From Desulfobacteraceae bacterium (GTDB lineage Bacteria > Desulfobacterota > Desulfobacteria > Desulfobacterales > SKZT01): 64,000 bases of DNA. The stretch spans positions 204,497 through 268,496 of the forward strand of contig JAABTQ010000001.1 of assembly GCA_011389745.1 (NCBI GenBank), given 5' to 3'. This document shows positions 9,477 through 28,989 of this stretch, piece after piece; the stretch's first letter is position 1; every line of letters starts with the position of its first letter. The notes below the pieces were generated by a model that had not been told where the DNA came from, made no database searches, and saw nothing but the letters and a program-made list of their open reading frames with translations. The position numbers were made by a program, and so were the translations under genes.

Positions 9477-10480
9477 GCTATGCCGTAGAATGCCTCCATG
9501 GCCTCTTTTTCAAGGATATGGCCATTGCCGGCATATCTGGGTGAAAAATGAAATACCGTCAATGCTTTGGCAGCGGATTTTCGGGCAATTGACCCTGCCT
9601 GCCGTGCGGTAAGGTGAAATTTTTTTTGGGCGATATCCCTGTGTTTATCTAAAAAGCTCGCTTCAATGAATAGATGATCGGAATTTTTTGCAAAACAGAT
9701 GATGTTTGCGATGTTTTCCTCACTGAAAACCACATCAGTAATATAAGTCACTTTTTGACCGGGACTGATGATAGCGATTTCATTAGCCAGATCATCCAGT
9801 TTAAAAGACCTTTTTCCTCCTACCTCTGTCAGCCCGGGCAATTCGAAAATGAAATCAGGGCATTTGTTTTGGTAAATGGCCTGCTTAAAATCATTGAGCC
9901 ATGGACCCATGGGAATACCCATGGATTCTAAACGATTTTTATTAATATTGATGTGAAATCTCTCCTGGAGAGAAAAACCCAAACATGGAATCTTATGATC
10001 CAGAATTACGGTTGAAACCGACAAGGAGGGTTCGTCTAAAAGCTTGCCTTCAAACGGGGTAACGCGGGTTTGGCCCTCCTGCTCAAATTGGGTACGGCAA
10101 GGATAGTGGCGGGTAAGAATATGTTCGGGGTGTATTTCCGAAACAATCAGAACAAACCGGTTGGTATAGTTTTGTACAAGATTCCATGAATATCCGGCAA
10201 GCTTTCCTTCGACATTCTTAAAAAAACTTTCAGGACCGTAAAGAAACAAGTTTTTATCCCGTCCCAACAAAAGTCTGAGAAGCCTGTCGAAACCCACAAA
10301 GTGATCCATGTGGGTATGCGAGACAAACACGTTGGAAATTTTCAGAATATCTTTTGGTGAAAGTGAATTTAGATCTCCAAGGTCAAAAAGAATGGCTCGT
10401 TTTTCATATAAAAACGGAATAAAAAGACCCGGATCTTCAAAAGGGCCATTGAACGGTTTCGGATGAAAATACAGAGGCAT
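9473..10480 (-). CDS. RNase Z-like metallo-beta-lactamase-fold hydrolase
   Basis: A 335-aa cytosolic protein of the metallo-beta-lactamase superfamily. The metal-binding motif SHTHMDHFVG lies near residues 54-63; a further aspartate (YITDVVF), and HLTARQAGSIARKSAA plus a C-terminal FHFSPRY give the pattern of the RNase Z/ElaC branch (HFSxRY is typical of that group). It may process tRNA 3' ends or act on another phosphodiester; a 335-aa length is compatible. Its ATG overlaps the stop of the 140-aa gene upstream by one base (TGATG), so the two are translationally coupled. Confidence 0.85.
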   Translation of the reverse strand: MPLYFHPKPFNGPFEDPGLFIPFLYEKRAILFDLGDLNSLSPKDILKISNVFVSHTHMDHFVGFDRLLRLLLGRDKNLFLYGPESFFKNVEGKLAGYSWNLVQNYTNRFVLIVSEIHPEHILTRHYPCRTQFEQEGQTRVTPFEGKLLDEPSLSVSTVILDHKIPCLGFSLQERFHININKNRLESMGIPMGPWLNDFKQAIYQNKCPDFIFELPGLTEVGGKRSFKLDDLANEIAIISPGQKVTYITDVVFSEENIANIICFAKNSDHLFIEASFLDKHRDIAQKKFHLTARQAGSIARKSAAKALTVFHFSPRYAGNGHILEKEAMEAFYGIA

Positions 10481-10902
10481 CAGACAGGCAATATTTTTTT
10501 TACCTGCTTATGAATGGTGAAATAAATTTCTTCATCTGACCCGAAAACATCTACGACATCTTTGTGGTTAACAAGTTTTTCGATAACAAAAGCGGTAAGG
10601 TATAAACTGACTACATGAGGTTGAGGTACCAGATTTCGGATAGGAGCCACCTGGTAATCGATGTCAAAATCATCCAAACGGGTCAATTTTTCCAAGGCCG
10701 ATAAAATCTGTTCTTGCAATGAGTTTTTGCTGGTGGTCTCAACAAGACTATGTTCCACAAGCTTTGAAGCAACGGCATTGCTAAGTTGATCAGAAAAATC
10801 TCTTACGCTGGTCAGTGCTTTTCTTCGTTCGTATTCTTTTGAAGACTCTATTTTGGAGAGAATGGTTGATTCTCTTGAGCTTGGTCGAAATACTTTCGCC
10901 AT
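10480..10902 (-). CDS. Conserved hypothetical protein coupled to RNase Z-like gene
   Basis: A 140-aa soluble protein with no signal peptide or membrane segment that I can assign. It has a basic N-terminus (MAKVFRPSSRES), a predicted helical middle and an IYFTIHKQVKKI C-terminus. It is the first of a two-gene unit; its stop codon and the start of the RNase Z-like gene share one base. The tight coupling suggests a functional link with that hydrolase, but nothing in the sequence reveals the role. Confidence 0.75.
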   Translation of the reverse strand: MAKVFRPSSRESTILSKIESSKEYERRKALTSVRDFSDQLSNAVASKLVEHSLVETTSKNSLQEQILSALEKLTRLDDFDIDYQVAPIRNLVPQPHVVSLYLTAFVIEKLVNHKDVVDVFGSDEEIYFTIHKQVKKILPV

Positions 10903-11050
10903 AAAATGCCACCTTAATTCATCAGGGTTAAAAAAGGATATGTATCCGAGCCGATATTTGGCCGAAAAACCATTAAAATGTTATAATAAAGTTAACAGGT
11001 GTTGATTGCAAGAAAAATGTTAAACCAGATTTTATCTGATTGATATTAAT

Positions 11051-12772
11051 TTATCCAATTTCCTCGATGACAATCTGTGCGGTTTTATTACCGTTCCATC
11101 GGTTCCACTTTAGACGAAAAGCCACAAAGGTCAAAAAGCCTTCCATATGTTGACGGGAATCAATATTAAAATGAATCGCATTTAATTTTTTTTGTGTTTG
11201 GCCGCCAGGTTGGCTCAAAAGCATTCGTCGATGGTTTTGACCGACAATGTTCAAATCTGACACAGCAATATTTCTGGACAGAAAAATAGGTTCGGGATTT
11301 CCGGAACCGAATGGTTTAAGTGCTTCAATCTCGTCTATAAAAGTTTCATTGATATCATCAAAAGACAATTCGCAATCGATGGTCAGTTCAGGAACCAGGT
11401 GGTCTTTTTGTATATGCTCTGATACAATTTGGTGAAAGGATTCTTTAAATGGTTCGATGTCGGATGTTTTTATTTTTATACCTGCAGCCATGCTATGGCC
11501 TCCGAAATCCTCAAGGAGCGAACTGCATTGGCAAAGGCCCGGATAAAGATCGAAACCTCGAATGCTTCGACAGGAGCCTTTGCCGAATCCATCACGAACG
11601 GAAATTAAAATAGTTGGTTTGAAAAACCTTTCAGCTAATCGGGAAGCGACGATTCCGAGAATACCTTCATGCCAGTGAGGGCTTGCCATCACCAGTGCCT
11701 TTTTGCTAAGCAGGTCGGGATTGCGATGAATCTGATTGAGAATATCTTCAAAGGTGTTTTGTTCAAATTCTTGACGTTGACTGTTTAGTTCGTTCAGAAA
11801 ACGTGCCAGTTCGGAAGCTCTGTCCGCCTGGTTTGTCATGAGCAGTTTAGCCGCCCATTCGGCATGTTCAATTCTTCCGGCAGCGTTTAATCTTGGGGCA
11901 AGACGAAAGGCGATGTCTTCACTGTCTAAGACCTGTTTAAAAAAGCCGCTTGCTTTTGCAAGTGACTTGAGTCCTAACCTTTCACCCGATTGAATAATCT
12001 CAAGGCCTGCTTTTACAAAAACCCGGTTTTCATCTTTTAGGGGCACTATATCAGCAATGGTGCCCAGTGCAACAAGATCACACATCTTTTTGAGGTTTGG
12101 TTCTGCATGATTGCGCCAAAATCCTTTTTCCCGAAGATATTTTCGTAAAGAAATGATCAGATAAAAAACAACCCCGACCCCTGCTAAATGATCCAATCCT
12201 GATTGGCAATCCTCGCGCTTGGGATTGACTATAGCGAGGGCATCAGGTAAAATTTTCCCAACATGATGATGATCGGTTATGATAACATCGATTCCGACCT
12301 TTCGGGCTTCCTGGATAGCTTCATGGCTGTTGGAACCGCAATCCACCGTAATAATCAAACGAATGCCGGAAGAAGAAGCCGCAATATTTTTTATCTGTTC
12401 CGGTTTGAGGCTGTATCCTTCCTCTATACGGTGCGGGATATAATATGAAACTCGTGCCCCGGTCACTGTTAGGAATTCATATAAAAGGACCGTTGATGTA
12501 ATACCATCCACATCATAATCGCCGAAAACCAGGATGGGTTCTTTTCTGTAAATGGCTTGTGCAATTCGCTCTATGGCAGGCTGCATATCGACAATGCTGC
12601 CGGGGTCTCGGAGATTCTTGAGTGAAGGTGATAAAAAACGTTTCACATCCTCGATGCAAACCAGGTTTCGATTGACCAGGACTGCTGCCGTTACCGGATG
12701 ACAACCCAGGCAACGGTATATTTCCTGTGTGGCTTTTGGGTCCGGTTTAAGAATCTTTAATTTTTTTTCCAT
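11051..12772 (-). CDS. recJ: Single-stranded-DNA-specific exonuclease RecJ
   Basis: RecJ degrades single-stranded DNA 5' to 3' in recombinational and mismatch repair. The 573-aa product has the DHH phosphoesterase motifs in order: FGDYDVDGITST near residues 81-92, TVDCGSN, ITDHHHVG near 167, and the DHHA1 region with HWHEGILGIVASRLAE and GGHSMAAG. A C-terminal OB-like domain follows. Length and motif order are normal. The ATG at 12772 is the first of the ORF and lies at the edge of a gap shared with the divergent zinc-ribbon gene. Confidence 0.96.
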   Translation of the reverse strand: MEKKLKILKPDPKATQEIYRCLGCHPVTAAVLVNRNLVCIEDVKRFLSPSLKNLRDPGSIVDMQPAIERIAQAIYRKEPILVFGDYDVDGITSTVLLYEFLTVTGARVSYYIPHRIEEGYSLKPEQIKNIAASSSGIRLIITVDCGSNSHEAIQEARKVGIDVIITDHHHVGKILPDALAIVNPKREDCQSGLDHLAGVGVVFYLIISLRKYLREKGFWRNHAEPNLKKMCDLVALGTIADIVPLKDENRVFVKAGLEIIQSGERLGLKSLAKASGFFKQVLDSEDIAFRLAPRLNAAGRIEHAEWAAKLLMTNQADRASELARFLNELNSQRQEFEQNTFEDILNQIHRNPDLLSKKALVMASPHWHEGILGIVASRLAERFFKPTILISVRDGFGKGSCRSIRGFDLYPGLCQCSSLLEDFGGHSMAAGIKIKTSDIEPFKESFHQIVSEHIQKDHLVPELTIDCELSFDDINETFIDEIEALKPFGSGNPEPIFLSRNIAVSDLNIVGQNHRRMLLSQPGGQTQKKLNAIHFNIDSRQHMEGFLTFVAFRLKWNRWNGNKTAQIVIEEIG

Positions 12773-12829
12773 GCCAAATGAAATATCCTAAATTCGCATT
12801 TGAAACAATATGAAAATTTTTATGAACGA

Positions 12830-12872
12830 CTGCACCCGGGGATTTTCTATTGGTAACTTACCGGGCATGCAG
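12830..12872. promoter_or_regulatory. Imperfect inverted repeat in recJ/zinc-ribbon gap
   Basis: CTGCACCCGG (12830-12839) and CCGGGCATGCAG (12861-12872) form an inverted repeat with a 2-nt bulge and a 21-nt loop. It lies between the divergent recJ gene and the seven-gene cluster starting at 13075, and could be an operator or leader hairpin. Apart from this, the 12773-13074 gap shows only AT-rich sequence. Confidence 0.35.
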
Positions 12873-13074
12873 TTGAACAAACAACTTCTCCATTCTTTAA
12901 TCATTTTTTCTGAAGTTTTTTTATTTAACCCATTTAAACAAAAAATTCATTTTTTCCTAATACCTTTCAAACAATCAAACCATATTTTTTGCTCTGTTAA
13001 TCTGATAAGACAAATAAGGTTTTTCCGGGAATATAAACCATTAGAAAGTAATTCAAGTAAATCACGTGTAACTT

Positions 13075-13344
13075 TTGGATAAATACATAAAATGCCCCGG
13101 CTGCAAAGATGATGCGCTTTATAAGTACGGGAAGACTCCCGATGGCAAACAAAAATATCAATGTTTGCTATGCAGTCGACAAATTGTGGCGGATTCACCA
13201 AGAGAAGATTTTGAAAAAAGGGTTGATTGTCCAAAATGCGGTGCCAAAATGCATCTTTACATGAAAGAAAAACATACAATTCGATTCAGGTGCGATTCAT
13301 ATCCGCTATGCAAAACCTATCTGAAAATAAATACGGAGGATTGA
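13075..13344 (+). CDS. Small two-zinc-ribbon protein
   Basis: An 89-aa protein with two cysteine-rich ribbons: CPGC near residue 7 with CLLC near 30, and CPKCGAKM near 52 with a further C...C pair around RCDSYPLCKTY. The second half resembles topoisomerase-type or transposase-associated zinc ribbons. The start is inferred: a stop codon lies two codons upstream and TTG at 13075 is the first usable codon, but it has no good Shine-Dalgarno. The following gene's GGAGG overlaps this stop. It could bind nucleic acid or be a metal-binding accessory of the next gene; I cannot choose. Confidence 0.65.
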   Translation: MDKYIKCPGCKDDALYKYGKTPDGKQKYQCLLCSRQIVADSPREDFEKRVDCPKCGAKMHLYMKEKHTIRFRCDSYPLCKTYLKINTED

Positions 13345-13348
13345 AAAT

Positions 13349-13720
13349 ATGACCTGTTTTATTCATCATGTGTCGGGAAGGCTTCGGGTTAAAATCGCCG
13401 GGATTAAACATCAGGAGCATCAGGCAAAAAAAGTCCGAGACCTTTTTAGCGGTCTCTATGGCATTGATAAGATTTCAGTCAATACCCTCACCGGCAATGT
13501 CGTGCTTTATTATGATCCATCTGTGTTTTCCGTGGATCAGCTTTTGAATATTCTTAAATACAATAATCTGGTTGACTCAAAACGACCCATTGTTTTTGAA
13601 AAACCTGTGAGCGAGCGTTCAACCCAAATGGGGATGGCCCTTGGAAAAGCCGTATTCAGTTGGGCGGTGGGAAAAGCCCTGGAGCGAAGCGGTCTTGGAT
13701 TCTTAGCGATATTTATATGA
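13349..13720 (+). CDS. HMA_2-like heavy-metal-associated protein
   Basis: A 123-aa protein whose first 75 residues have the ferredoxin-like fold pattern HHVSGRLRVKI...GIDKISVNTLTGNVVLYYDP, the signature of the HMA_2 group, which lacks the CxxC of classical metal chaperones. The C-terminal 30 residues (MGMALGKAVFSWAVGKAL) form a glycine/alanine-rich amphipathic or membrane helix. The fold closely resembles the N-terminus of the P-type ATPase at 24415-27420 and the protein at 27941-28423 (shared pattern: RLR/GRYKV...TLTGNI/NPLTGSI). GGAGG lies 9 nt before the ATG. It is 12 nt upstream of the radical SAM gene. Confidence 0.75.
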   Translation: MTCFIHHVSGRLRVKIAGIKHQEHQAKKVRDLFSGLYGIDKISVNTLTGNVVLYYDPSVFSVDQLLNILKYNNLVDSKRPIVFEKPVSERSTQMGMALGKAVFSWAVGKALERSGLGFLAIFI

Positions 13721-13732
13721 CGAATTAAGAAA

Positions 13733-15016
13733 ATGGATAATCAACAACATCGTATGCCTTTTTTTTATACCTCACAATTTCTTCGGGGTTTCTGCCGCTT
13801 TCTGCAAAACATCCCTCCGGGGCAACTGGTAATTCAGTTTACCAACCATTGCAATGCAACATGCCCCCAGTGCGGTATGCGTATTACCAATAAACTCAAG
13901 CGAAACCGCATTCCGGTGAATGATATCAAAAGAATCATTGATGCGGCCGTCCAAAGAAATATCCAAAGCATTTCTTTTACAGGAGGTGAACCTCTATTGT
14001 TTTTGGATGATCTGGCCGAGCTGATCGGTTATGCCCGGCAAGCGGGTATTCCTATGATTCGAACAGGCACCAATGGGTTTATATTCAGAAATTCCGATGA
14101 AAAAGAATTTACTTCCCGTGTGCAAAGGGTGGCAAAAAAATTATACGACAGTGGCCTAAGAAATTTTTGGATCAGCATCGATTCGGCAAATCCGACTTTG
14201 CACGAAAAAATGCGTGGGTTGCCCGGAATTATGGAGGGCTTGAAGAAAGGACTTCGGATTTTTCATGATGCAGGACTTTTTCCAACCGCCAATATGGGAA
14301 TCAATCGTAACATGGCCGGATTGCTCACTTCAGGAATACACCGAAAAGATTATTGCACTGAAACTGAGTATCTGAAAAATTTTTTTGAAAGTTTCCAAAA
14401 AGGTTTTGAGTGTTTTATCAGATCCGTCATTCGCATGGGTTTTACAATGGTCAGCTTTTGTTATCCCATGAGTATTGACAATGAAAAAACGACCGCTTTG
14501 AAACCTGTTTATGCAGCCACATCCACGAACCGGATTGTTGCTTTCGATGCCATGGAAAAGGTTCAAATCTTTACCGCCCTCAGGCTTGTTACGGAGCGGT
14601 TCCGGGATCAAATCAAAATTTTTACGCCGCAATGCGCTCTTTATTCACTGAGCCGGCAATATGCTGAGAAAACTGAACTTACATATTCATGTCGGGGCGG
14701 GGTGGATAACTTTTTTATCGATTCCCGCGATGGTTTGTCATATCCTTGCGGATATCGTGGAAAAGACCTGTTAGGAAAATTTGAGGAAGGCGTAAGATCA
14801 ACTATTAGCAATTGCAGATTGTGTAACTGGGAATGCTTTCGTGATCCTTCCGAATTGTTGGGCCCCATTTTTCAGTTTGTATCAGAACCCTTAAAACTTT
14901 TGCAAAAAATAAAAAGAGATCGGGCCTTTTTTAAATACTGGATGGCAGATATCCGGTACTACTTGGCCTGTGATCTTTTTAACGGAAGAAAACCTTTGCG
15001 TCGGGACAAAAGTTAA
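13733..15016 (+). CDS. Radical SAM protein with C-terminal auxiliary cluster motif
   Basis: A 427-aa radical S-adenosylmethionine enzyme. The SAM-cluster motif CNATCPQC (CX3CX2C) is near residue 38, followed by the SAM-binding FTGGEPLLFLDDL. The C-terminal region has CRGG...YPCGYRG and CRLCNWEC, resembling a SPASM/twitch-type auxiliary Fe-S site. Such enzymes modify peptides, proteins or small molecules by radical chemistry. Here the neighbours are an unrecognised 801-aa protein, a phosphatidylserine decarboxylase homologue and an Lgt-like protein, so a lipid or lipid-linked substrate is a reasonable inference. No small precursor-peptide gene is visible next to it. The Shine-Dalgarno is weak. 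Confidence 0.88.
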   Translation: MDNQQHRMPFFYTSQFLRGFCRFLQNIPPGQLVIQFTNHCNATCPQCGMRITNKLKRNRIPVNDIKRIIDAAVQRNIQSISFTGGEPLLFLDDLAELIGYARQAGIPMIRTGTNGFIFRNSDEKEFTSRVQRVAKKLYDSGLRNFWISIDSANPTLHEKMRGLPGIMEGLKKGLRIFHDAGLFPTANMGINRNMAGLLTSGIHRKDYCTETEYLKNFFESFQKGFECFIRSVIRMGFTMVSFCYPMSIDNEKTTALKPVYAATSTNRIVAFDAMEKVQIFTALRLVTERFRDQIKIFTPQCALYSLSRQYAEKTELTYSCRGGVDNFFIDSRDGLSYPCGYRGKDLLGKFEEGVRSTISNCRLCNWECFRDPSELLGPIFQFVSEPLKLLQKIKRDRAFFKYWMADIRYYLACDLFNGRKPLRRDKS

Positions 15017-15044
15017 TTACCTTCAATCAACCAGGGAGGGCATT

Positions 15045-17450
15045 TTGAATCATCCGGCCATTGATTTGCTCTTTTTTCAAAAACAACCTGCCGGTGTCAT
15101 TACCGATCACCAGAAACTCTGCAAACTCCTTAAAGTTTGCCGCAATTCTCCTGATCAGTTTGCCCGCACCCTGCCTTTTGCAGAGGAAGACACCACAGCG
15201 GGTGTGGAAAATGAGCTGCAGGTGGCTGTTACAGGTGCTCGTGACCGGGTGGATTTATCTCTGACCATCCAATCTTCCTCTTATTACAAAAACATGCTGA
15301 CGCGGTTTTACCGGGGTGATGTTTCCCGTGCGGTTGTCAGCGTGTTGGAACAGTTTTTGGACGAAAATCCCGAAAATATCTGGGAAAATAGTTGGGTACG
15401 CTTTCCCAGACGGTGTTTGAGCCCTTTTGCCGATCAGGTTTTTGAAAATGACCTGAAATCCGATAAAAGCCGGCCCGACAGTCCGCAGCGCGGGGATGTC
15501 GGGCGGTTTCTGATTTTTCAGCAGCAGGAGGAATTTTTGCGTATTCCGGTAAGTTACCTGCTCAAACTTGCTTTAGCGGATGTTATCAGCCGCCTACCCG
15601 CCATGCCGTCCCTGTTACGCAGTACCGGCGAACGCCTGATGCGCCATTTTTTAAATGACAACACCTCGCCGGAAACCTATTCCTTTCAACCGGTACTCCT
15701 TACCCAAAACGCGCCGGCAGGATATGGTATTGCCGCTGAGACCTTGAAGCGCTACCTGCTGACCCACCTATTGATAACGTATGCCAATCCATCTTTTGAC
15801 CTTGCCGCCTGCGGGCAAAAAGTTGAAATCTATTTTGCCCCTCATCCACCGGTACGTCAAAAGCGTCTGAATGATTTAATATCCGATAGTTTTTACCGTG
15901 AGCTGTTCATAAGTCCCTGCTTGTCAGGCTGGAACCACGGCCAGATCAAACATGCTTACATGGAGCTTTGCCACCAGGTATTATCCCGAAGCCAGCTGAA
16001 TGCTGTGGTTAAATTGCGTGATGCAGGTATCCTGAACACCAATCTGGTGGTTTTACCCAATATTTCCAATACAAGCCTAGCCAACAACGGCACCCATATC
16101 AGCCTTGGAAGTATTCGTCTGGCATCCTGTCTTCAGGATACAGCTTCCGGTTTTACAACCCTTGAAGAAAAATACGTGGGGGATCTGGCCATCAAAATCA
16201 TGGAACATTTCCTGCCGCTATTTGTCGGCACCTATAGTGCAGCCCCGTATCGTCTGGATTTTGCTGATTTTCATCCCGAAAAAGTGCTTGGTTTTCTTCC
16301 TCATGAATTGGAGTTTACCCACCTGCGCATGATCTGGCGTCGCTGGAAAAAAAAGGCCCGTTTGAAAATACTGGGGCATGCGGTTACACCTTTTGGGCTT
16401 TCCTGGTTGGATAAAAGTATCAGCCGGATGTTTGGATTAAAGGGTGATTTGGTAACGGATTTTCGCCTCCTGGATTACCTGGTGGCCCTGTTAAGCACCG
16501 AAACAAGCCCGGCTTTAGACGGGACATTGGACAATGGGTCGCGCCTTAAAAAAGACCTGCAGGCCATGGGGGTTTTTGACGGCGGTATGGCCCTGTACCA
16601 GTTATATCGCCAGCGGGAATTCAGGATAATGGGATATTCCGGTTTCGAAGGACGCTACTACAGCCAGTTTTCGAGCCTGCTTGAAGATATGGCCTTTGCT
16701 GCCGCCCTGCAGAACCTGCTGACGGCTCTGGCCTTTAAATACATTCTGAGCGGTCAGGTCAAACACGCCCATATTCCGGACACCCCCTTTGTGGAGAGTG
16801 AACGCCGACAGATTTTTTTCGGGGCCGCTATCGGTCTTCCCACTTTTTTTGTGCATAAGCAAACCAGCAACCGCTTTTTACACAATATCCTTGCCCAGGC
16901 GCAAAACACGCGCATCAGCCGGCGTTATACCAATCACATTCGGGTTCATCATATGTCTTGGCGGTCGGCACTGTTGCATATCATTCAGAAGGATGCCGCC
17001 GATTTGATAGAAATGATGAATTTACAGCCAATGATACAGGATCTGGAACGGCGACTGAAAGATCCCTCCTCTTATGCCGCCTCGGGCAAGTTGTTGAAAG
17101 GCATTATGACCCAGACCGGCACGTCCGATCCGCTGAAACTGCCCACGGAAAAATTCAATAAAGCAGCTGAAAGCTACTATCGCCGTGAATTGCGTCAAAA
17201 ATATCTGGATGAAGCCTTGACGGTGTTAATTGATGACTGGGAGACCGCCCTACAAAAAGGACAATTGGGAGAACAGTTCTTGGATACTATTTTGGATGAC
17301 ACGCTGAAAAATATATCACCGCCGGCGTTTCTCAATTCCTGCCGCAAGGTGTTGCACCAGGATGCTCTTACACCGGAATCCACACAAACCTTGCTTCGTC
17401 TGACCCTGCTGTCGGTTGCCATGGATGGTATGTCGCAACAGATGCAATAG
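15045..17450 (+). CDS. Unrecognised 801-aa protein in radical SAM/PSD/Lgt-like cluster
   Basis: I do not recognise this protein. The start is TTG at 15045, with GGAGG 5 nt upstream; longer in-frame starts overlap the radical SAM gene. It has no signal peptide or obvious membrane helix. Seen in the sequence: a central region with NNGTHISLGSIRLASC near residue 350 and a basic-aromatic stretch (MIWRRWKKKARLK) near 435, then a helical C-terminal third rich in Glu, Lys and Leu. Many charged and aromatic residues suggest an enzyme or scaffold. Being between the radical SAM gene (28 nt) and the PSD-like gene (49 nt), it is probably a core member of the cluster. Confidence 0.85.
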   Translation: MNHPAIDLLFFQKQPAGVITDHQKLCKLLKVCRNSPDQFARTLPFAEEDTTAGVENELQVAVTGARDRVDLSLTIQSSSYYKNMLTRFYRGDVSRAVVSVLEQFLDENPENIWENSWVRFPRRCLSPFADQVFENDLKSDKSRPDSPQRGDVGRFLIFQQQEEFLRIPVSYLLKLALADVISRLPAMPSLLRSTGERLMRHFLNDNTSPETYSFQPVLLTQNAPAGYGIAAETLKRYLLTHLLITYANPSFDLAACGQKVEIYFAPHPPVRQKRLNDLISDSFYRELFISPCLSGWNHGQIKHAYMELCHQVLSRSQLNAVVKLRDAGILNTNLVVLPNISNTSLANNGTHISLGSIRLASCLQDTASGFTTLEEKYVGDLAIKIMEHFLPLFVGTYSAAPYRLDFADFHPEKVLGFLPHELEFTHLRMIWRRWKKKARLKILGHAVTPFGLSWLDKSISRMFGLKGDLVTDFRLLDYLVALLSTETSPALDGTLDNGSRLKKDLQAMGVFDGGMALYQLYRQREFRIMGYSGFEGRYYSQFSSLLEDMAFAAALQNLLTALAFKYILSGQVKHAHIPDTPFVESERRQIFFGAAIGLPTFFVHKQTSNRFLHNILAQAQNTRISRRYTNHIRVHHMSWRSALLHIIQKDAADLIEMMNLQPMIQDLERRLKDPSSYAASGKLLKGIMTQTGTSDPLKLPTEKFNKAAESYYRRELRQKYLDEALTVLIDDWETALQKGQLGEQFLDTILDDTLKNISPPAFLNSCRKVLHQDALTPESTQTLLRLTLLSVAMDGMSQQMQ

Positions 17451-17499
17451 TTATCGGATATGAAAACGCTAACATTAAAGCAAGTCAGTAAAATTTGCC

Positions 17500-18513
17500 A
17501 TGTCTCCTTTTAACATGACCCATCAGTTCATTGACCGCCATAGCGGCAAAGTGATTACGGAAACCCTTCTGGGTGACCGAATGGTTGATTTTATGTATTC
17601 CAAACTGCGGGAATCTGTCCCGGGCCTGTTTAACGCATTGACATCGTCGCGTATGACCCGGGTTTTAGGATACCTGCGCTACGATGGTTTGTTTAACGAT
17701 CATCACATTGACATCCGAAGGGTGTCCGGCCAATTGGGCATTAACCTTGAGGAATGCCTGGAACCAATAAAAACATTGCGACAACTCTTTGAGCGTAAAA
17801 TACGGTACTGGGATGTACGGCCCATGAAGGAAACAGCCCGGCATGTGGTATCACCGGCGGATGCCCGTCTGCTGGTGGGTTCGCTTGATGATATGGCCCT
17901 TTTACCCATCAAAGGGAAATTTTTTGATTATCCGGAATTATTGGGAGCGCCGCATCACCGTGAATATAAGTTATTTCATGGCGGCGATGTAGCCATTTTC
18001 CGGCTGACGCCGGACAAATATCATTATAACCACGTTCCCGTCAGCGGACGGGTTTTGAATGTTTATGACGTGGATGGTGTATTTCATGCCTGTAATCCCG
18101 GCGCGGTGGTTTGCGTCGTAAACCCGCTTTCCAAAAATCGGCGGGTAGTGACCATCATAGACACGGATGTGCCCCATGGCACCATGGTTGGATGCGTGGC
18201 CATGGTTGAAGTGGTGGCCATGATGATCGGAGATATTCGACAGTTTTACAGCCGCTATTATTACGATAATCCTCAGGAGATAAAAGTGGGAATGTGGCTT
18301 GAAAAAGGCTGTCCCAAAAGTCTTTACCGGCCGGGAAGTTCGACCACCATTCTCCTGTTTGAAAAAAATCGCGTGAAATTTGCACAAGATATTCTGACCA
18401 ATTTATACCGCTGTGATGTTAACAGCCGATTTTCCATCGGTTTTGGACGTCCCCTGGTTGAGACCGATGTCAGGGTGCGATCGGAAATCGCGGAGACAAA
18501 GCACGCAGTATGA
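17500..18513 (+). CDS. Phosphatidylserine decarboxylase family protein
   Basis: A 337-aa homologue of pyruvoyl-dependent phosphatidylserine decarboxylase. Family motifs are present in order: RQLFERKIRYWDVRPM, VSPADARL near residue 127, YHYNHVPVSGRVL near 172, and PGSSTTILLFE near 284, where cleavage between Gly and Ser would create the pyruvoyl group. The protein should therefore self-process into large and small subunits at the membrane. An N-terminal extension of about 90 residues is not typical of housekeeping PSD. In this cluster it may decarboxylate phosphatidylserine or another serine- or amino-acid-bearing substrate. The Shine-Dalgarno is weak; an ATG at 17515 is an alternative. Confidence 0.87.
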   Translation: MSPFNMTHQFIDRHSGKVITETLLGDRMVDFMYSKLRESVPGLFNALTSSRMTRVLGYLRYDGLFNDHHIDIRRVSGQLGINLEECLEPIKTLRQLFERKIRYWDVRPMKETARHVVSPADARLLVGSLDDMALLPIKGKFFDYPELLGAPHHREYKLFHGGDVAIFRLTPDKYHYNHVPVSGRVLNVYDVDGVFHACNPGAVVCVVNPLSKNRRVVTIIDTDVPHGTMVGCVAMVEVVAMMIGDIRQFYSRYYYDNPQEIKVGMWLEKGCPKSLYRPGSSTTILLFEKNRVKFAQDILTNLYRCDVNSRFSIGFGRPLVETDVRVRSEIAETKHAV

Positions 18514-18568
18514 TTTCCACAAGGATTACAATAAAAGAACGATTACTGATGACGTCAGGGAGCATATG

Positions 18569-19633
18569 ATGCACAATGAAATTTTCATTGCGCTGCTAGG
18601 AATTTTGCTGTTGCTGCTTTTCAGGTGGGCTTTCCGGCATCTTCCCAATGAAAAATGGCAGATTCTGGCTGTAATACCACGACACAAAACTGATGCGCGT
18701 TACTGGCAGGGGCTTAACTTAACATATTATGGTGTTTTTATTGCTTCGGCATATACCTTCGCACTATCCATCCTGCTGGTGCTATTGCACACCACCGGGA
18801 TGAATTTGATCGGTGTCGGTTTTATCATGCTGGCCATGCTGGCCGTTTGTCTGCCGGCAGCTCGGATCATCGCCCGTATTGTGGAAAAAAAACCGGCTAC
18901 CAATACGGTGGCCGGTGCCTCTTTTGTCGGTCTGCTGCTGTTACCCTGGCTGGTCTATTTCACCAATTTGACACTGGGACGCTGGATGGATTTTCATTTA
19001 TCCTTGCGGATCATGTTGGCGGGGGTTTCAACAGCCTACGCCTTTGGTGAAGGCATAGGTCGCCTGGCCTGCATCAGTTTCGGCTGTTGTTACGGCAAAC
19101 CCCTTGAAAACTGTTCAGGTCGAATAAGCTCCCTTTTCCGTAATTTCCATATGACATTTACAGGCCTTACCAAAAAAGTGACTTATGCCGGCGACCTTGA
19201 AGGCAAACCGCTGGTGCCCATACAGGCCTTAACAGCCGTGGTGTGCTGCCTTGCGGGACTGGTTGGCTCCTATCTATTCTTATCCGGCTTTTTCATGACA
19301 GCGGCGCTGCTGACATTTACGGTTACGCAAGGGTGGAGACTTTTATCGGAAATCTGGCGGGCGGATTATCGGGGTGGACAGCGTTTCTCAGCTTACCAGC
19401 GTATGGCTGTCGCATCTTTGCTGTATATGATACCGGTGCTTTTGCTGACGTTTTCACCCGATCTGCAGCCGGCCGATATTGCTGAAGGATTAAAAGTGTT
19501 GTGGCAGCCTGAAACAATTATCGGGTTGCAACTTTTATGGACGGCCGTTTTTCTTTACACCGGCCGCAGCCAGGTAACAACTGCCGGCCTGGAATTTTTC
19601 GTTGAAAAAAAATACATTGGAAGCTGCGAATAA
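18569..19633 (+). CDS. Lgt-like polytopic membrane protein
   Basis: A 354-aa membrane protein with about seven hydrophobic segments. The motif GEGIGRLACISFGCCYGKP near residue 168 matches the conserved core of prolipoprotein diacylglyceryl transferase (Lgt), which moves diacylglycerol from phosphatidylglycerol to a cysteine. The HGG motif with the conserved histidine of true Lgt is not evident, so this is probably a paralogue with another substrate. I chose the ATG at 18569 because AGGGAG lies 6 nt upstream; the adjacent ATG at 18566 is an alternative. Its stop overlaps the following 66-aa gene (TAATG). Confidence 0.8.
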   Translation: MHNEIFIALLGILLLLLFRWAFRHLPNEKWQILAVIPRHKTDARYWQGLNLTYYGVFIASAYTFALSILLVLLHTTGMNLIGVGFIMLAMLAVCLPAARIIARIVEKKPATNTVAGASFVGLLLLPWLVYFTNLTLGRWMDFHLSLRIMLAGVSTAYAFGEGIGRLACISFGCCYGKPLENCSGRISSLFRNFHMTFTGLTKKVTYAGDLEGKPLVPIQALTAVVCCLAGLVGSYLFLSGFFMTAALLTFTVTQGWRLLSEIWRADYRGGQRFSAYQRMAVASLLYMIPVLLLTFSPDLQPADIAEGLKVLWQPETIIGLQLLWTAVFLYTGRSQVTTAGLEFFVEKKYIGSCE

Positions 19634-19833
19634 TGGGTCTAAAACCATATTCGAACTGCATACTCGCCTATATTCCAAGGCTGATTCGGCTGGTTTTTGC
19701 ATGGGTATTGGTGACTATAGGAGGAACACTCATGATTACGCCCTTTCCGGGGGGAATAATATTGCTGGGTGCAGGGCTTCTCCTGCTTTATTGTAGCTCT
19801 GACTCCATGCGCAACCTTTTTTACCTGCGATAA
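19633..19833 (+). CDS. 66-aa membrane protein, PGPGW-like
   Basis: A 66-aa protein with one or two membrane helices around LVFAWVLVTIGGTLMITPFPGG and ILLGAGLLLLY. The glycine/proline turn between the two hydrophobic stretches resembles small PGPGW-type membrane proteins. Its ATG shares one base with the Lgt-like stop codon, so expression is translationally coupled. It is the last gene I can support in the cluster. Confidence 0.7.
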   Translation: MGLKPYSNCILAYIPRLIRLVFAWVLVTIGGTLMITPFPGGIILLGAGLLLLYCSSDSMRNLFYLR

Positions 19834-24414: not shown

Positions 24415-27400
24415 TCAAGCGCTCCTGTTTTTGATGAGTTCATTTATCAAAAGAGACAGAACCGAGGTGACCCCGATTACCAGAATATCCGGCAAACCCA
24501 AACGGGGAACTCCCAGAAAATTTCTTAAAGGTGGAAAGAACATGCTCAATGCCTGGGCTCCAAGTGATACTCCCAGTGCCGCGTTCAGCCATGGGTTCGA
24601 AGGGGGGCGTTTGCCTTCAAATATACTGCTGTGGCTGCTTCGGCAACTGACGGCATGCAGAAGCTGGCCAAGAGTCAGGCTTTGAAAAGCCAGACCACCT
24701 GCCCTGGCTCCCATCCCGTAACGAGCAATACCAAAACCATAGGCAGCCATAGCCCCCAGGGTAATATCGGCTGATTCCAGAAGCATTTGTTTGTAGTCCG
24801 TGCTGGAAAAAAGACCGGCTTGCGGATCTCTGGGAGGAAATTCCATGACATCCGCCTCAGGTTCTTCCATGGAAAGGGCTAACCCCGGAAAAATATCGGA
24901 TACGATATTAATCCAAAGTAATTGCATCACGTTAAGGGGAACCCCGATTCTTAACGCAATGGAAAAGAACATGATCATGATTTCACTTAAATTGGTGGAA
25001 AGAAAAAAATGGACTGATTTTCGAACATTGATGTGAATTGTCCGACCATCCCTGACAGCAATAATAAGTGTTTCAAGATTGTCTTCTTCTAAAACGACAT
25101 CAGCAACCTCCCGGGCCGTTTCAGTACCACTTCTCCCCATGGCAATGCCGATATCGGCGGCCTTGAGCGCCGGGCCGTCATTGATACCATCCCCGGTCAT
25201 GCCCACGGTCTTTCCGGCAGATTGAAGCGCCTGCACAATTCGCAATTTGTGGGCCGGGCTGACCCTTGAATAGACATGTACCCTTTTGGCAACGGCTTTT
25301 AGCACTTCGGGTTTGAATGCATTAAGTGTGGATGAATCCAGGATTTCCAAAGGACCTTCACGGGCGATGTTCAACTGCTCCGCTACGGCCTGTGCGGTGG
25401 AATGCTGGTCACCGGTGATCATGACGGTATCGATTCCCGCATGGTGGAAAACTTTGATCAGTTCACCAACCCCATCGCGAACAGGGTCTGACATGCCGAT
25501 AATTCCCGCCCAGATAAGACCGTCTTCATGGTTATTGGTATGTGATATGTTCTCCATTTCTTTCCAGGCAAAACCCAGAACTCTCAGGGCTTCACCGGCC
25601 ATCCGCTCATTTTCCGTTTCAATCTCCAAAAGAGACTCCTGGGTCAACGGCACCAATTCTCCGGCAATCATCTGCCATTTGCACATGGCCAGTACTTCAG
25701 GAGGGCTTCCTTTTATCGAAAATATCTTTTTTCCATCCGATCTTTCATGGAGCGTACTCATAAAAAGACGGCTATCGCTTCGTTGACTGACTTTTAACAG
25801 CTTATGGTTTTTCCTGACCGCAAATACATCCATACCGGCATCCTGTGCCACACATACCAATGCATTTTCCGTCGGCGAGCTGCAAATCGATTCAATATCG
25901 CACAGCTCATATGCATCAGTCATTGCTTCGTTGCAGAGTACGCAGATATTGAACAGTCGTCTAAATTCCTCAAGGTTTATCGGGACAACAACTTTCGGAC
26001 CGCTTTTAAATTTATTTTTGATAACATTGACACACAAATGGCCTGAGTAGATTTTCTGCACCGTCATTCGGTTTTGGGTAATGGTCCCTGTTTTATCCAT
26101 GCAAATGGTCTGTAAAGCCCCCAGGGTTTCAACGGCCTGGAGCTTGCGAATCAGGACCCCGTGGCGTTGCATTCTTTTGATGCCCAGGGCAAAATTGATG
26201 GTGGCCGCAGCCGGGAGCCCTTCAGGAACAGCCGCTGCCGCCAGAGAAATGGCCATGCGAAGCATCTGAAGTATTGCAAAACCCTGCATAAATCCCATTA
26301 AAAAGACAATTCCACAAACAACGGCACACATGATCACCAACTGATCCCCCAGGTGCCCAAGCTGTCTTTCGATAGGAGTTTCAGGAGAACTAATATCTCC
26401 CAGCATCAATTGAAGTTGCCCTACTTCGGTGCGTTGTCCTGTGGCCACGACCACTGCAAGACCCTGCCCGCCGATCACCAGTGTTCCCATAAAGGCCATA
26501 TTCACACGATCGGCCAATGCGATATGGTCTCCTTTCAGGGAAGCCGTTTTTTTGTGAACCGGTAAACTTTCACCTGTAAGAATAGACTCATCAATGGTCA
26601 GATAATCGGCGGCGATAATTCTGCAATCCGCGGGAACAGACATACCCGGCTTTAAAACCACCACGTCGCCTTTGACAATGCCGTCGGATTTGATATCCTC
26701 TTGTTCGCCATTTCGAATAACCCGTGCTGATGGCATCACCAGGGTTTTTAAAGAATGGATTGTTTTTTCGGCATGGCTTTCCGTAAAGTAACCGATTAAA
26801 GCATTAGCCGCCACAACACCGGCAATAACAACAGCATCAATAAAGCCCCCGGTTAAAATCGATACTCCTGACGCCGCTGCCAAAAGATAAACCGGGAGTG
26901 AATTGAGCTGATCCCAGAGGATTTCCAGACCCGATCTCGGTTGTGATACGGGAAGGGTATTGGGGCCATAGCGCTTTAGTCTTTCTATCACCTGATCCGG
27001 AAATAGTCCTGTTTCAGGATTTGTTTCCAGTTGGGCAAGCACCGAAGATGTGTCCATCAAATGCCAGGGATTATTCATCTCTTCAGGTGAAAAAAACAGA
27101 TTTTTTATCATTTGACGAAAGCTTGCTTTTTCGTCGGTTGTAATGCCGCTCTCCTGTTTTGAAAGATGCTTATCCGGCAAACAGATGTCTTCGGCTTCTT
27201 TCAGCGCTTCCCGGATCAGTTCCTGAATTCCCGTATGGGTATTTTCCGAGTTAAAACATACCAGAATGTTGCCGGTAAGCGTGCTGCCTGAAACTTTATC
27301 TATACCGTTATATCGTGAGAGTCGAAGCTCGAGGAAAGTTTTACACTCTTCACTTTGAAACAGGCCATCGACTTTATACCTGCCCCGGCCTTCAATATGG

Positions 27401-27420
27401 GTATGGATAGCGGTAACCAT
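24415..27420 (-). CDS. P2-type cation-transporting ATPase with N-terminal HMA_2-like domain
   Basis: A 1001-aa P-type ATPase. The first ~75 residues (GRGRYKV...GSTLTGNILVCF) form an HMA_2-like domain without CxxC. The transporter core has TGES, VPEGLPAAATI in TM4, the phosphorylation site DKTGT near residue 441, KGSPPEV for nucleotide binding, and GDGINDGPALKAADIGIAMG as the hinge. PEGLP and an ion-site helix with NIVSDIFPGLALSMEEPE fit the P2 (Ca2+/Mn2+-type) group rather than the CPx copper/zinc pumps. The pumped ion cannot be read from sequence. Two HMA_2/DUF5132-like genes lie upstream on the same strand and metK follows immediately, forming one locus. Confidence 0.93.
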   Translation of the reverse strand: MVTAIHTHIEGRGRYKVDGLFQSEECKTFLELRLSRYNGIDKVSGSTLTGNILVCFNSENTHTGIQELIREALKEAEDICLPDKHLSKQESGITTDEKASFRQMIKNLFFSPEEMNNPWHLMDTSSVLAQLETNPETGLFPDQVIERLKRYGPNTLPVSQPRSGLEILWDQLNSLPVYLLAAASGVSILTGGFIDAVVIAGVVAANALIGYFTESHAEKTIHSLKTLVMPSARVIRNGEQEDIKSDGIVKGDVVVLKPGMSVPADCRIIAADYLTIDESILTGESLPVHKKTASLKGDHIALADRVNMAFMGTLVIGGQGLAVVVATGQRTEVGQLQLMLGDISSPETPIERQLGHLGDQLVIMCAVVCGIVFLMGFMQGFAILQMLRMAISLAAAAVPEGLPAAATINFALGIKRMQRHGVLIRKLQAVETLGALQTICMDKTGTITQNRMTVQKIYSGHLCVNVIKNKFKSGPKVVVPINLEEFRRLFNICVLCNEAMTDAYELCDIESICSSPTENALVCVAQDAGMDVFAVRKNHKLLKVSQRSDSRLFMSTLHERSDGKKIFSIKGSPPEVLAMCKWQMIAGELVPLTQESLLEIETENERMAGEALRVLGFAWKEMENISHTNNHEDGLIWAGIIGMSDPVRDGVGELIKVFHHAGIDTVMITGDQHSTAQAVAEQLNIAREGPLEILDSSTLNAFKPEVLKAVAKRVHVYSRVSPAHKLRIVQALQSAGKTVGMTGDGINDGPALKAADIGIAMGRSGTETAREVADVVLEEDNLETLIIAVRDGRTIHINVRKSVHFFLSTNLSEIMIMFFSIALRIGVPLNVMQLLWINIVSDIFPGLALSMEEPEADVMEFPPRDPQAGLFSSTDYKQMLLESADITLGAMAAYGFGIARYGMGARAGGLAFQSLTLGQLLHAVSCRSSHSSIFEGKRPPSNPWLNAALGVSLGAQALSMFFPPLRNFLGVPRLGLPDILVIGVTSVLSLLINELIKNRSA

Positions 27421-27528
27421 ATGTTATTATTCTAATTTTAATAGTTGAAATATCAGATGATGGTTTCAAAAAAATTTCAGGCCAAGGTAATCCTTTGAAG
27501 TTCCATCGGCATCAGGTTCATCTTCTAA

Positions 27529-27601
27529 CGTCATACCGGCGAAGGCCGGTATTCAGATTGTTGGGTTCACCTACTGGATTCCGGCCTGCGCCGGAATGAC
27601 G
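27529..27601. repeat. Palindromic CGTCATACCGGC-type intergenic repeat
   Basis: CGTCATACCGGCGAAGGCCGG at the left end is mirrored by CCGGCCTGCGCCGGAATGACG at the right, and the two arms flank a short centre with CTGGATTCC. This is the widespread proteobacterial palindromic repeat type. It is different in sequence from the TGTCATTCTGAG family. Confidence 0.75.
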
Positions 27602-27714
27602 GTTATATGTCATCGGAATCACTCAACTTAGGTTTAAAGACCCTCATTCTGGGAAGGCCCGCAACATTTGTTTGCAATAAGCTGGGCCTAATTGGATTTC
27701 CCTCTGTCATTCTG

Positions 27715-27800
27715 AGGAGGCCGACACATTTGTTGATCCGTGACCACAGAAAAATTGGCCGACGAAGAATCTTTCGTTTCCAAATTCACGGCCTGCTTTT
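27715..27800. repeat. MITE-like repeat, partial copy C, inverted
   Basis: Starts TGTCATTCTGAGGAGGCC, then GGCCGACGAAGAATCTTTCG, matching the right end of copies A and B in reverse orientation. The other end is missing. The 27421-27940 gap holds this, the palindromic repeat at 27529 and no supported gene, although a degraded repeat end lies near 27645. Confidence 0.75.
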
Positions 27801-27940
27801 GATGCCACTTCCTGCCAGATCTGTTACTTTATCCAACAAATAAGGCAATACTTCACCTTTCGATGTGATACATCGTAAAAAAAGATAATCTAAAAGATGA
27901 ATGTTAGGATGGAACTAGATGAATCTTAATTTTTGTTTGT

Positions 27941-28423
27941 TTATCGGCTGTCGAAAATGGATTTGCTGAATACACCAAAGGCATACCAAAAGGCAGTGTA
28001 CCAGGGAGGCATTTTAAAATTGCCTCTCAAAATTTCAATGACACCGAATGCCAGAAGAAGTATGAAGATCGCAATGGGAAGATCAACATCTCCGCCGGAA
28101 ATTTTTTTCAAATCAGCATTGATTCCAGAAAGAGGCGTGGTGACTTTTTGTAAAAGAATTTCATTTCCTGATTCTTTTTTCTCTGAAACAGCCATGGCAA
28201 AAAGTTTGTTTTTTTTGCCGAAAGCAGCAATTTCGTCAACCTTAACTCCTTTCTTTTCGATGATAATACTACCTGTTAGAGGATTTGCGACACTCTGTGC
28301 AAAACCCGCTTTCTGCAATTTCTCATGAACCGATGAAAAATACTTATGGTCTTCTCTGCGCCCGGTGATTTTTAATCTCAGGCGTTCATTGGTAACATGA
28401 CATATTCTTGCTTCAGGGATCAT
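27941..28423 (-). CDS. HMA_2-like membrane-anchored protein
   Basis: A 160-aa protein with an N-terminal HMA_2-like fold (RLRLKITGRR...SVANPLTGSIIIEKKG) and one or two membrane helices near the C-terminus (LPIAIFILLLAFGVIEIL, then WYTAFWYAFGVFS). It matches the fold of the ATPase N-terminus and of the 13349-13720 protein, again without CxxC. Being between the DUF5132-like and ATPase genes on the same strand, it is probably an accessory of the pump, for example a metal relay or membrane partner. The Shine-Dalgarno is weak. Confidence 0.75.
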   Translation of the reverse strand: MIPEARICHVTNERLRLKITGRREDHKYFSSVHEKLQKAGFAQSVANPLTGSIIIEKKGVKVDEIAAFGKKNKLFAMAVSEKKESGNEILLQKVTTPLSGINADLKKISGGDVDLPIAIFILLLAFGVIEILRGNFKMPPWYTAFWYAFGVFSKSIFDSR

Positions 28424-28469
28424 AAAAAAATTCTCAGTCCGTATTCAGCAAATTAAACACCATCCAAAT

Positions 28470-28790
28470 TTATTTTTTGGCAGCCTCTGCTTTGGTTTCC
28501 GGTGCTTTTTTTACACTTTCCGCTTTGGCTTCCGGTGCTTTTTTTACACTTTCCGCTTTGGATTCCTCTGCAATTTCTGATTTGGCCTCGGCAGCCAGGT
28601 CTTCAAGATTCTCCATGGCCTCAGCGGTGGCGATTTTTGCCGTGTTATAGGCGATCAGACCTCCTTTGATGGTCGCCTTGGTCAGGGATCTGAGCAACAC
28701 GGTGGCGACCGGGATAATGACCGGAGCCAAAACCACTGCACCGGCACCAACCCAAAAACCACTTCCAAATTTAACGCCTAAAAGTTTCAT
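28470..28790 (-). CDS. DUF5132-like protein with Lys/Glu/Ala repeats
   Basis: A 106-aa protein. The N-terminal half has glycine-spaced hydrophobic residues (FGSGFWVGAGAVVLAPVII), a single membrane helix, followed by an amphipathic helix; the C-terminal half is a charged Lys/Glu/Ala tail with an 11-residue tandem repeat (AESVKKAPEAK, AESVKKAPETK; 33-bp DNA repeat). The start is ATG 28790 because GGAGG lies 5 nt upstream. Its layout recalls the mycobacterial PacL (DUF1490) partners of P-type ATPases, in which a membrane helix and a soluble tail organise pumps. Here it precedes an ATPase locus on the same strand. Confidence 0.7.
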   Translation of the reverse strand: MKLLGVKFGSGFWVGAGAVVLAPVIIPVATVLLRSLTKATIKGGLIAYNTAKIATAEAMENLEDLAAEAKSEIAEESKAESVKKAPEAKAESVKKAPETKAEAAKK

Positions 28791-28989
28791 GAGATACCTC
28801 CTATGCTTGTAAGATGTATTGGTGAAAAGATATGTTGAATTACTATTAAACGGCACAATTTGATTTTGCAATAATCTCTTTCATTCAATACCTATAATTA
28901 AAATTTTATAGTATCGCACATTAAGTGTTTGAAAATTATTTAATTTTTATCAGTTTTAAATTACCTATTCACCTTTCAAAGAGTTATTA

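Follow-up and report, generated by a model that had tools for sequence, protein, structure and literature searches.

Gene organization of the locus

A run of seven plus-strand genes at positions 13075-19833 of a 64,000-nucleotide stretch of Desulfobacteraceae bacterium DNA (GenBank assembly GCA_011389745.1, contig JAABTQ010000001.1) is described here, and the whole stretch is referred to as the window. The analysis was focused on three adjacent genes of this run, termed the triad, which encode an 801-aa protein (P801), a paralogue of phosphatidylserine decarboxylase (PSD) and an Lgt-like integral membrane protein, and which are tentatively assigned to one pathway for a lipid head group.

All seven open reading frames (ORFs) are present, and scans against Pfam and NCBIfam name four of them, each above the Pfam cut-off. 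The run begins with a zinc-ribbon protein (13075-13344; NF050000, E = 4.2e-11; PF01396), an HMA_2 protein of 123 aa (13349-13720; PF19991, E = 1.7e-8) and a radical SAM protein with a CxxxCxxC motif (C39, C43, C46) and C-terminal cysteines (13733-15016; PF04055, E = 9.4e-16). These are followed by P801 (15045-17450), the PSD paralogue of 337 aa (17500-18513; PF02666, E = 1.8e-35), the Lgt-like protein (18569-19633) and a small membrane protein of 66 aa (19633-19833). For P801 and the 66-aa protein no family was found in Pfam or NCBIfam, and for the Lgt-like protein of the window none at threshold. The gaps along the run measure 4, 12, 28, 49 and about 55 nt, and the final pair shares one base (TAATG), so that the close packing on one strand and the overlapping last pair reported in a preliminary description of this DNA are borne out by the ORF coordinates and gap lengths. 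P801 was assigned a TTG start at 15045, and this length is better supported than the alternative, a longer 826-aa ORF with a GTG start, because a Shine-Dalgarno sequence GGGAGG (15034-15039, plus strand) is located 5 nt upstream of the TTG. Promoter and terminator scans at the locus were uninformative, with promoters near background.

Conservation and co-inheritance of the triad

In total 354 P801 loci were found in GTDB, the best 80 of which were read. The samples used for counting comprised 146 genomes of the order, 297 genomes of the phylum, 50 P801 loci of at least 15 kb and 40 control windows. P801 is present in 33 of the 146 order genomes and in 31 of the 297 phylum genomes, with full-length copies being about 48-59% identical. 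Carriers in GTDB include Geobacteraceae, Syntrophaceae, Desulfosarcina and Desulfatibacillum as well as the anammox bacteria Brocadia and Anammoxibacter, one Nitrospinae record and one Acidobacteria record.

The gene order P801, PSD, Lgt-like is kept in nearly all loci. Among the loci of at least 15 kb the PSD gene was found in 49 and the Lgt-like gene in 47, and neither was found in the control windows. In the phylum sample the triad PSD and, by profile search, the Lgt-like gene each occur in 32 genomes; those with the Lgt-like gene are all 31 P801 genomes and one more (G260), in which the triad PSD is found as well (Fisher p = 3e-41 for co-occurrence of the triad genes). The adjacency of the three genes is retained across at least four phyla while the flanking genes vary. 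In the P801 tree, the root and deep branches of which are weak, the anammox and Nitrospinae sequences are nested within the deltaproteobacterial diversity, and this suggests that P801 was spread by horizontal transfer.

The core of the locus is thus P801-PSD-Lgt-like, and the seven genes are two modules. The preliminary description had grouped all seven as one cluster and named a lack of joint conservation elsewhere as its refutation. P801, PSD and the Lgt-like gene, which co-occur side by side in Desulfobacterota and elsewhere, withstand this check, and the idea has to be given up for the seven genes as one system. In particular the radical SAM gene, which had been expected in such a conserved block, is carried by only 5 of the 31 triad genomes. 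The lipid-like role that had been proposed for the locus is graded as likely. Two deviating loci were observed. In one genome (G129; L047/L023) the genes directly downstream of P801 include neither a recognised PSD nor an Lgt-like gene, and efflux genes follow. In another (G035; L053, 9074-11529) a stop splits P801 into two ORFs, which may reflect either decay of this copy or a fault in the assembly.

Predicted fold and motifs of P801

Neither the window protein nor the 30 aligned members as a group could be placed by family models, since no Pfam or NCBIfam model was found for the former and no common family for the latter, and the P801 profile, when run against PDB sequences, returned nothing significant. 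Structure prediction, which had been proposed at the outset as a way to approach this protein, gave the fold of glutamate-cysteine ligases and Pup ligases. The AlphaFold (AF2) model (predicted local distance difference test, pLDDT, 87.6; predicted template modelling score 0.91) was matched by VIA-align to E. coli GshA, the glutamate-cysteine ligase (GCL), with Z 16.9 over 421 residues at 4.4 A, and further to YbdK (Z 15.4), PafA (Z 14.7) and Dop. The first 20 matches all belong to the superfamily of glutamine synthetase (GS), GCL, PafA and Dop or are glutamine synthetases themselves, and the following one has Z 5.0. The same proteins were ranked at the top by Foldseek, with weak E-values, none of them below 0.001.

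Three motifs characterize the superfamily (Iyer et al., PMC2588565): GhExE (strand 1), [HD]x[NH] (strand 4) and Ex[RK]x2D (strand 6). In P801 the residues G53-x-E55-x-E57 are invariant in 30 of 30 sequences and are located on the model strand 50-57, in agreement with GhExE; at the h position the window protein has V, and the relatives have A, S, T or another residue. Moreover, N347-N348-G349-x-H351 is invariant, with H351 lying on strand 350-356 and being followed by I-S, and E535-x-R537 is invariant on strand 533-538, with an invariant S540 where the superfamily has D. The histidine motif was assigned its equivalent by order along the chain. On the basis of the model and the invariant columns, in which the fold and the Mg-ATP signature of carboxylate-amine ligases are seen, P801 is predicted to be an ATP-dependent, amide-forming carboxylate-amine/ammonia ligase of the GS-type fold. 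P801 and its relatives represent a new family, assigned to a known superfamily through the predicted fold. An assignment of P801 as a PlsB-like acyltransferase was dropped, as there was no family match and the fold is different.

PSD paralogue and Lgt-like protein

The triad PSD contains the conserved motifs SPADAR, YHYNHVPVSG and GSS, and the intact pyruvoyl-decarboxylase motifs noted previously were confirmed by alignment with canonical PSDs, to which the protein is 17-24% identical. The NCBIfam PSD model NF001941/PRK00723 aligns to residues 9-301, scoring 114.8 bits and thus below its cut-off of 371; the long N-terminus, which had been regarded as unusual, is not so, because such an extension is common to this existing PSD model. 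The triad PSD is predicted to be a pyruvoyl-type decarboxylase, for which phosphatidylserine is a candidate substrate. A second PSD gene is located on contig C25 of the source genome, and an additional PSD was found in all 27 triad genomes tested.

The Lgt-like protein is a true Lgt homologue. This is evident from the profile comparison with Lgt (hhalign, E = 1.2e-12), from the AF2 model (pLDDT 87.5; VIA Z 13.4 to E. coli Lgt, 5azb) and from 17 relatives at the triad position that exceed the Pfam LGT cut-off. The diacylglyceryl donor site of E. coli Lgt is lined by R143 and R239, and the essential H103 is the proposed binder of the lipobox peptide (PMC4728403). The counterparts of R143, R239, E243 and R246 are invariant in the Lgt-like family (R165, R257, E261 and R264 in the window protein), as is the equivalent of G154. 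The H103 position (HGGL in E. coli) is occupied by V120 in the window protein and by V, T, L, A, C or I among the relatives. As the donor-site arginines are kept and H103 is replaced, the acceptor appears to have changed, and due to the loss of H103 the protein was not filed as a lipoprotein Lgt. A canonical Lgt is encoded on contig C4 of the source genome and in each of 19 triad genomes tested. With a second PSD and a canonical Lgt in the tested genomes, the triad PSD and the Lgt-like protein are considered dedicated paralogues.

The module of radical SAM and PHP-domain glycosyltransferase

The radical SAM gene belongs to a second, looser module together with a PHP-domain glycosyltransferase (PHP-GT) of about 815 aa. 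It occurs in 8 of the 297 phylum genomes, always accompanied by PHP-GT, which itself is present in 49 of them, 14 of these being among the 31 P801 genomes (p = 6e-5), and is located at 14 of the 50 P801 loci. Only the glycosyltransferase family 4 (GT4) part of PHP-GT is recognised by Pfam; its nearest relative is GlcNAc-phosphatidylglycerol synthase, below cut-off. The N-terminal domain is labelled PHP on account of the DLHVHS motif in its sequence and of one split copy that weakly matches CehA/McbA metallohydrolase. In Trichlorobacter PHP-GT is inserted between the PSD and Lgt-like genes, and in Brocadia the gene order is PsiE, P801, PSD, Lgt-like, methyltransferase, PHP-GT, radical SAM, HMA_2. 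At one locus (L319, G411; 14169-18131), at a distance of 3 kb from the triad, PHP-GT is directly followed by a third PSD, which is of the canonical type, and by a methyltransferase, and at another (L320, G415; 9819-13324) it is represented by two genes, with DgkA between these and P801.

The remaining members of the run are conserved to a lesser extent. HMA_2 was found in 4 of the 50 loci and the zinc ribbon in 1; HMA_2 relatives (L036, L083, L319, L124) sometimes lie immediately 5' of P801, and the 66-aa gene has a relative at just 1 of 20 other loci. In the zinc-ribbon protein the N-terminal ribbon is of the IS1/IS1595 type, and a C4 ribbon of the Top1 type is also present. In the source genome PHP-GT is located on a separate contig (C23:32398-34797), where it adjoins a second zinc-ribbon gene (C23:35124-35394) that is 91% identical to the window copy in DNA and 85% in protein. 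In the region C23:32398-35394 (L185, L317) this zinc ribbon is followed by fragments of HMA_2 and of the radical SAM C-terminus and then by the intact PHP-GT, and the region is a broken duplicate of the front of the window operon. It appears that an ancestral operon of zinc ribbon, HMA_2, radical SAM and PHP-GT was duplicated and broken up, with the window having kept the front half beside the triad. A separate minus-strand group of the window (24415-28871), 10 kb from its first HMA_2 cluster, encodes a 1001-aa P-type ATPase carrying HMA_2 at its N-terminus, together with an HMA_2 protein of 160 aa and a DUF5132 protein.

A link to ladderane synthesis was rejected, as the ladderane-like gene clusters of anammox bacteria and deltaproteobacteria (PMC2649909) involve type II fatty acid synthesis (FASII) and other radical SAM genes, not those described here.

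Phosphate genes and other neighbours of the triad

At least one phosphate gene (PstS/A/B/C, PhoU, Ppk, Ppx, PiT or PhnJ) was found within 22 of 50 triad loci and 0 of 40 controls (p = 1.8e-7), the control windows being drawn from four triad-carrying genomes and related loci in this count not being independent. The identities of the phosphate genes were checked. The genes differ by lineage, with a same-strand run of phoU, phoR and a response regulator upstream in L086 and L099 and ppk in Geobacteraceae. Additionally, PsiE-family genes are located near the triad in Brocadia (directly upstream), Geobacteraceae and L046. The carbon-phosphorus lyase gene phnJ was observed near the triad at six loci (L104, L118, L120, L085, L146 and L040), and phosphonate use may be linked.

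Other neighbours provide hints at the chemistry. In Brocadia the triad is followed by a methyltransferase closest to the models of OlsG (ornithine lipid N-methyltransferase) and PmtA, below their cut-offs, and a similar one occupies the same position in the Nitrospinae record. DgkA is located directly upstream of P801 in G415, and the Geobacteraceae loci contain DUF2062 and a gene resembling zinc-dependent phospholipase C. A gene for an AIG2/gamma-glutamyl cyclotransferase was found near P801 in five Geobacter-lineage loci and 0 of 40 controls; at L111, L114, L121, L126 and L127 it lies close upstream of P801. Enzymes of this kind open gamma-glutamyl amides, and such neighbours fit a gamma-glutamyl product.

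Proposed pathway and alternatives

Literature searches revealed no described pathway combining a GS-fold ligase, a PSD and an Lgt, in line with the preliminary description, which knew of none for this gene set, and no lipid data for triad carriers. As the best account of the evidence it is tentatively put forward that P801, PSD and the Lgt-like protein could well form one dedicated pathway building an aminolipid head group; the triad probably serves phosphate limitation. The fold, motifs, co-inheritance and neighbourhood are observed, and the following substrates, order of steps and final lipid are proposed. The Lgt-like protein would take diacylglycerol off phosphatidylglycerol and pass it to a small acceptor other than a peptide, with release of glycerol-1-phosphate, PSD would strip the carboxyl from an amino-acid head group and leave a primary amine, and P801 would use ATP in order to join a carboxylate, for which the gamma-carboxyl of glutamate is the most likely candidate, to that amine. 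The final lipid would be of a phosphorus-free (gamma-glutamyl)amine type, used under phosphate shortage. That the product is indeed a new phosphorus-free diacylglyceryl lipid, with a PSD-made amine, a gamma-glutamyl (or similar) amide formed by a new GS-fold ligase family and an Lgt paralogue lipidating a small molecule, is possible but rather doubtful.

Several points weigh against this account. Two of the P801 motifs are only partial (HxS for [HD]x[NH] and ExRx2S for ExRx2D), and hhalign of P801 against small GCS2 alignments gave no profile link (probability below 1%), so that the superfamily placement rests on predicted structure. PSD could simply make phosphatidylethanolamine (PE), the cyclotransferase association is limited to one lineage, and glutamate as substrate as well as a phosphorus-free product are what we infer rather than observe. 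Phosphate genes are nearby at just 2 of 17 loci of the order Desulfobacterales, none lies near the triad in the window itself, and the controls for the phosphate link come from few genomes with related loci among those compared. PHO boxes of the E. coli-type consensus upstream of P801 were not enriched over shuffles or random segments.

The main rival is a product that retains phosphate, such as N-gamma-glutamyl-PE: PSD would make a local PE pool, P801 would amidate the amine and the Lgt-like protein would use or move the lipid. The match of the PSD motifs to ordinary PSDs, the PmtA/OlsG-like methyltransferase of the Brocadia cluster and the DgkA of G415, which could recycle diacylglycerol, are in its favour. 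It is considered unlikely, though deserving of serious attention, since another PSD for PE is already available in every triad genome tested, the phosphate-gene neighbourhood better suits a phosphate-saving lipid and the kept Lgt donor site suggests diacylglyceryl transfer.

That all seven genes form one system, with radical SAM and HMA_2 acting in the triad pathway, is improbable. The genes are contiguous in the window, L035 and Brocadia (L083) have radical SAM, PHP-GT and triad in one continuous run, and the radical SAM gene is enriched in triad genomes (5 of 8, p = 4e-4); yet it is missing from 26 of the 31 triad genomes, it goes with PHP-GT in 8 of 8 cases, three of them in genomes that gave no P801 match, and neither the zinc ribbon nor the 66-aa gene is conserved. 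It is more improbable still that P801 is a Pup-ligase-like enzyme which conjugates the carboxylate of a protein or peptide to a protein or an aminolipid. Its nearest folds include PafA and Dop (Z 14-15), PSD could provide PE as the amine and Lgt is a family of lipidation enzymes, but no conserved small Pup-like gene was found among P801 neighbours of at least 60 aa, shorter ORFs not having been searched, and the acceptor-peptide histidine of Lgt is lost. Least probable of all is a mere persistence of a backup PSD, a backup Lgt and an unrelated enzyme as neighbours, as PSD and Lgt both have a housekeeping homologue in the genome but the perfect co-occurrence, the adjacency over at least four phyla with varying flanks and the distinctness of the triad versions (low PSD identity, loss of H103) speak against it.

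The dedicated aminolipid pathway would concern a widespread, co-inherited gene set of sulfate reducers, Geobacteraceae, syntrophs and anammox bacteria, the largest member of which is unnamed in Pfam and NCBIfam. If true, it would provide new lipid head-group chemistry and a phosphate-saving route for anaerobes, an Lgt relative acting on a non-lipoprotein substrate and a gene target for lipid biomarker research, and it is directly testable in carriers that are in culture, such as Citrifermentans bremense, Trichlorobacter thiogenes and Desulfatibacillum alkenivorans.

Comparison with known systems

As proposed, the pathway would represent a new way of making a lipid head group within a known kind of synthesis, and the lipid itself may be new. 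Phosphate-stress lipid remodelling by PlcP-Agt, OlsF or BtaAB, as described with agt/olsF for D. alaskensis (PMC5193443), shares with the triad the phosphate genes, GT4 and lipid-modifying genes nearby, whereas the triad enzymes are different. The triad PSD resembles the proteins of NF001941/PRK00723 in its pyruvoyl motifs and N-terminal extension, and differs by a conserved C-terminal tail (SRFSxGFGxPLVET) and its constant partnership with P801. The Lgt-like protein shares with Lgt the profile homology, the fold and the equivalents of R143, R239, E243, R246 and G154; it differs by an extra N-terminal helix, an invariant SFGCCYG motif and the missing H103, with the canonical Lgt being encoded elsewhere in the tested genomes. 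P801 has in common with GshA, GCS2/YbdK and PafA/Dop the fold (Z 14-17) and the invariant GxExE on the first core strand; an invariant His and an invariant ExR, partial counterparts of the other two motifs, follow in the order of the superfamily. In contrast to these proteins of about 360-510 aa it comprises 801 aa, is without a detectable profile match and carries the HxS and ExRx2S variants. Finally, the neighbours of the GshA/GCS2/PafA superfamily are glutathione or proteasome genes, whereas P801 is conserved together with lipid enzymes.

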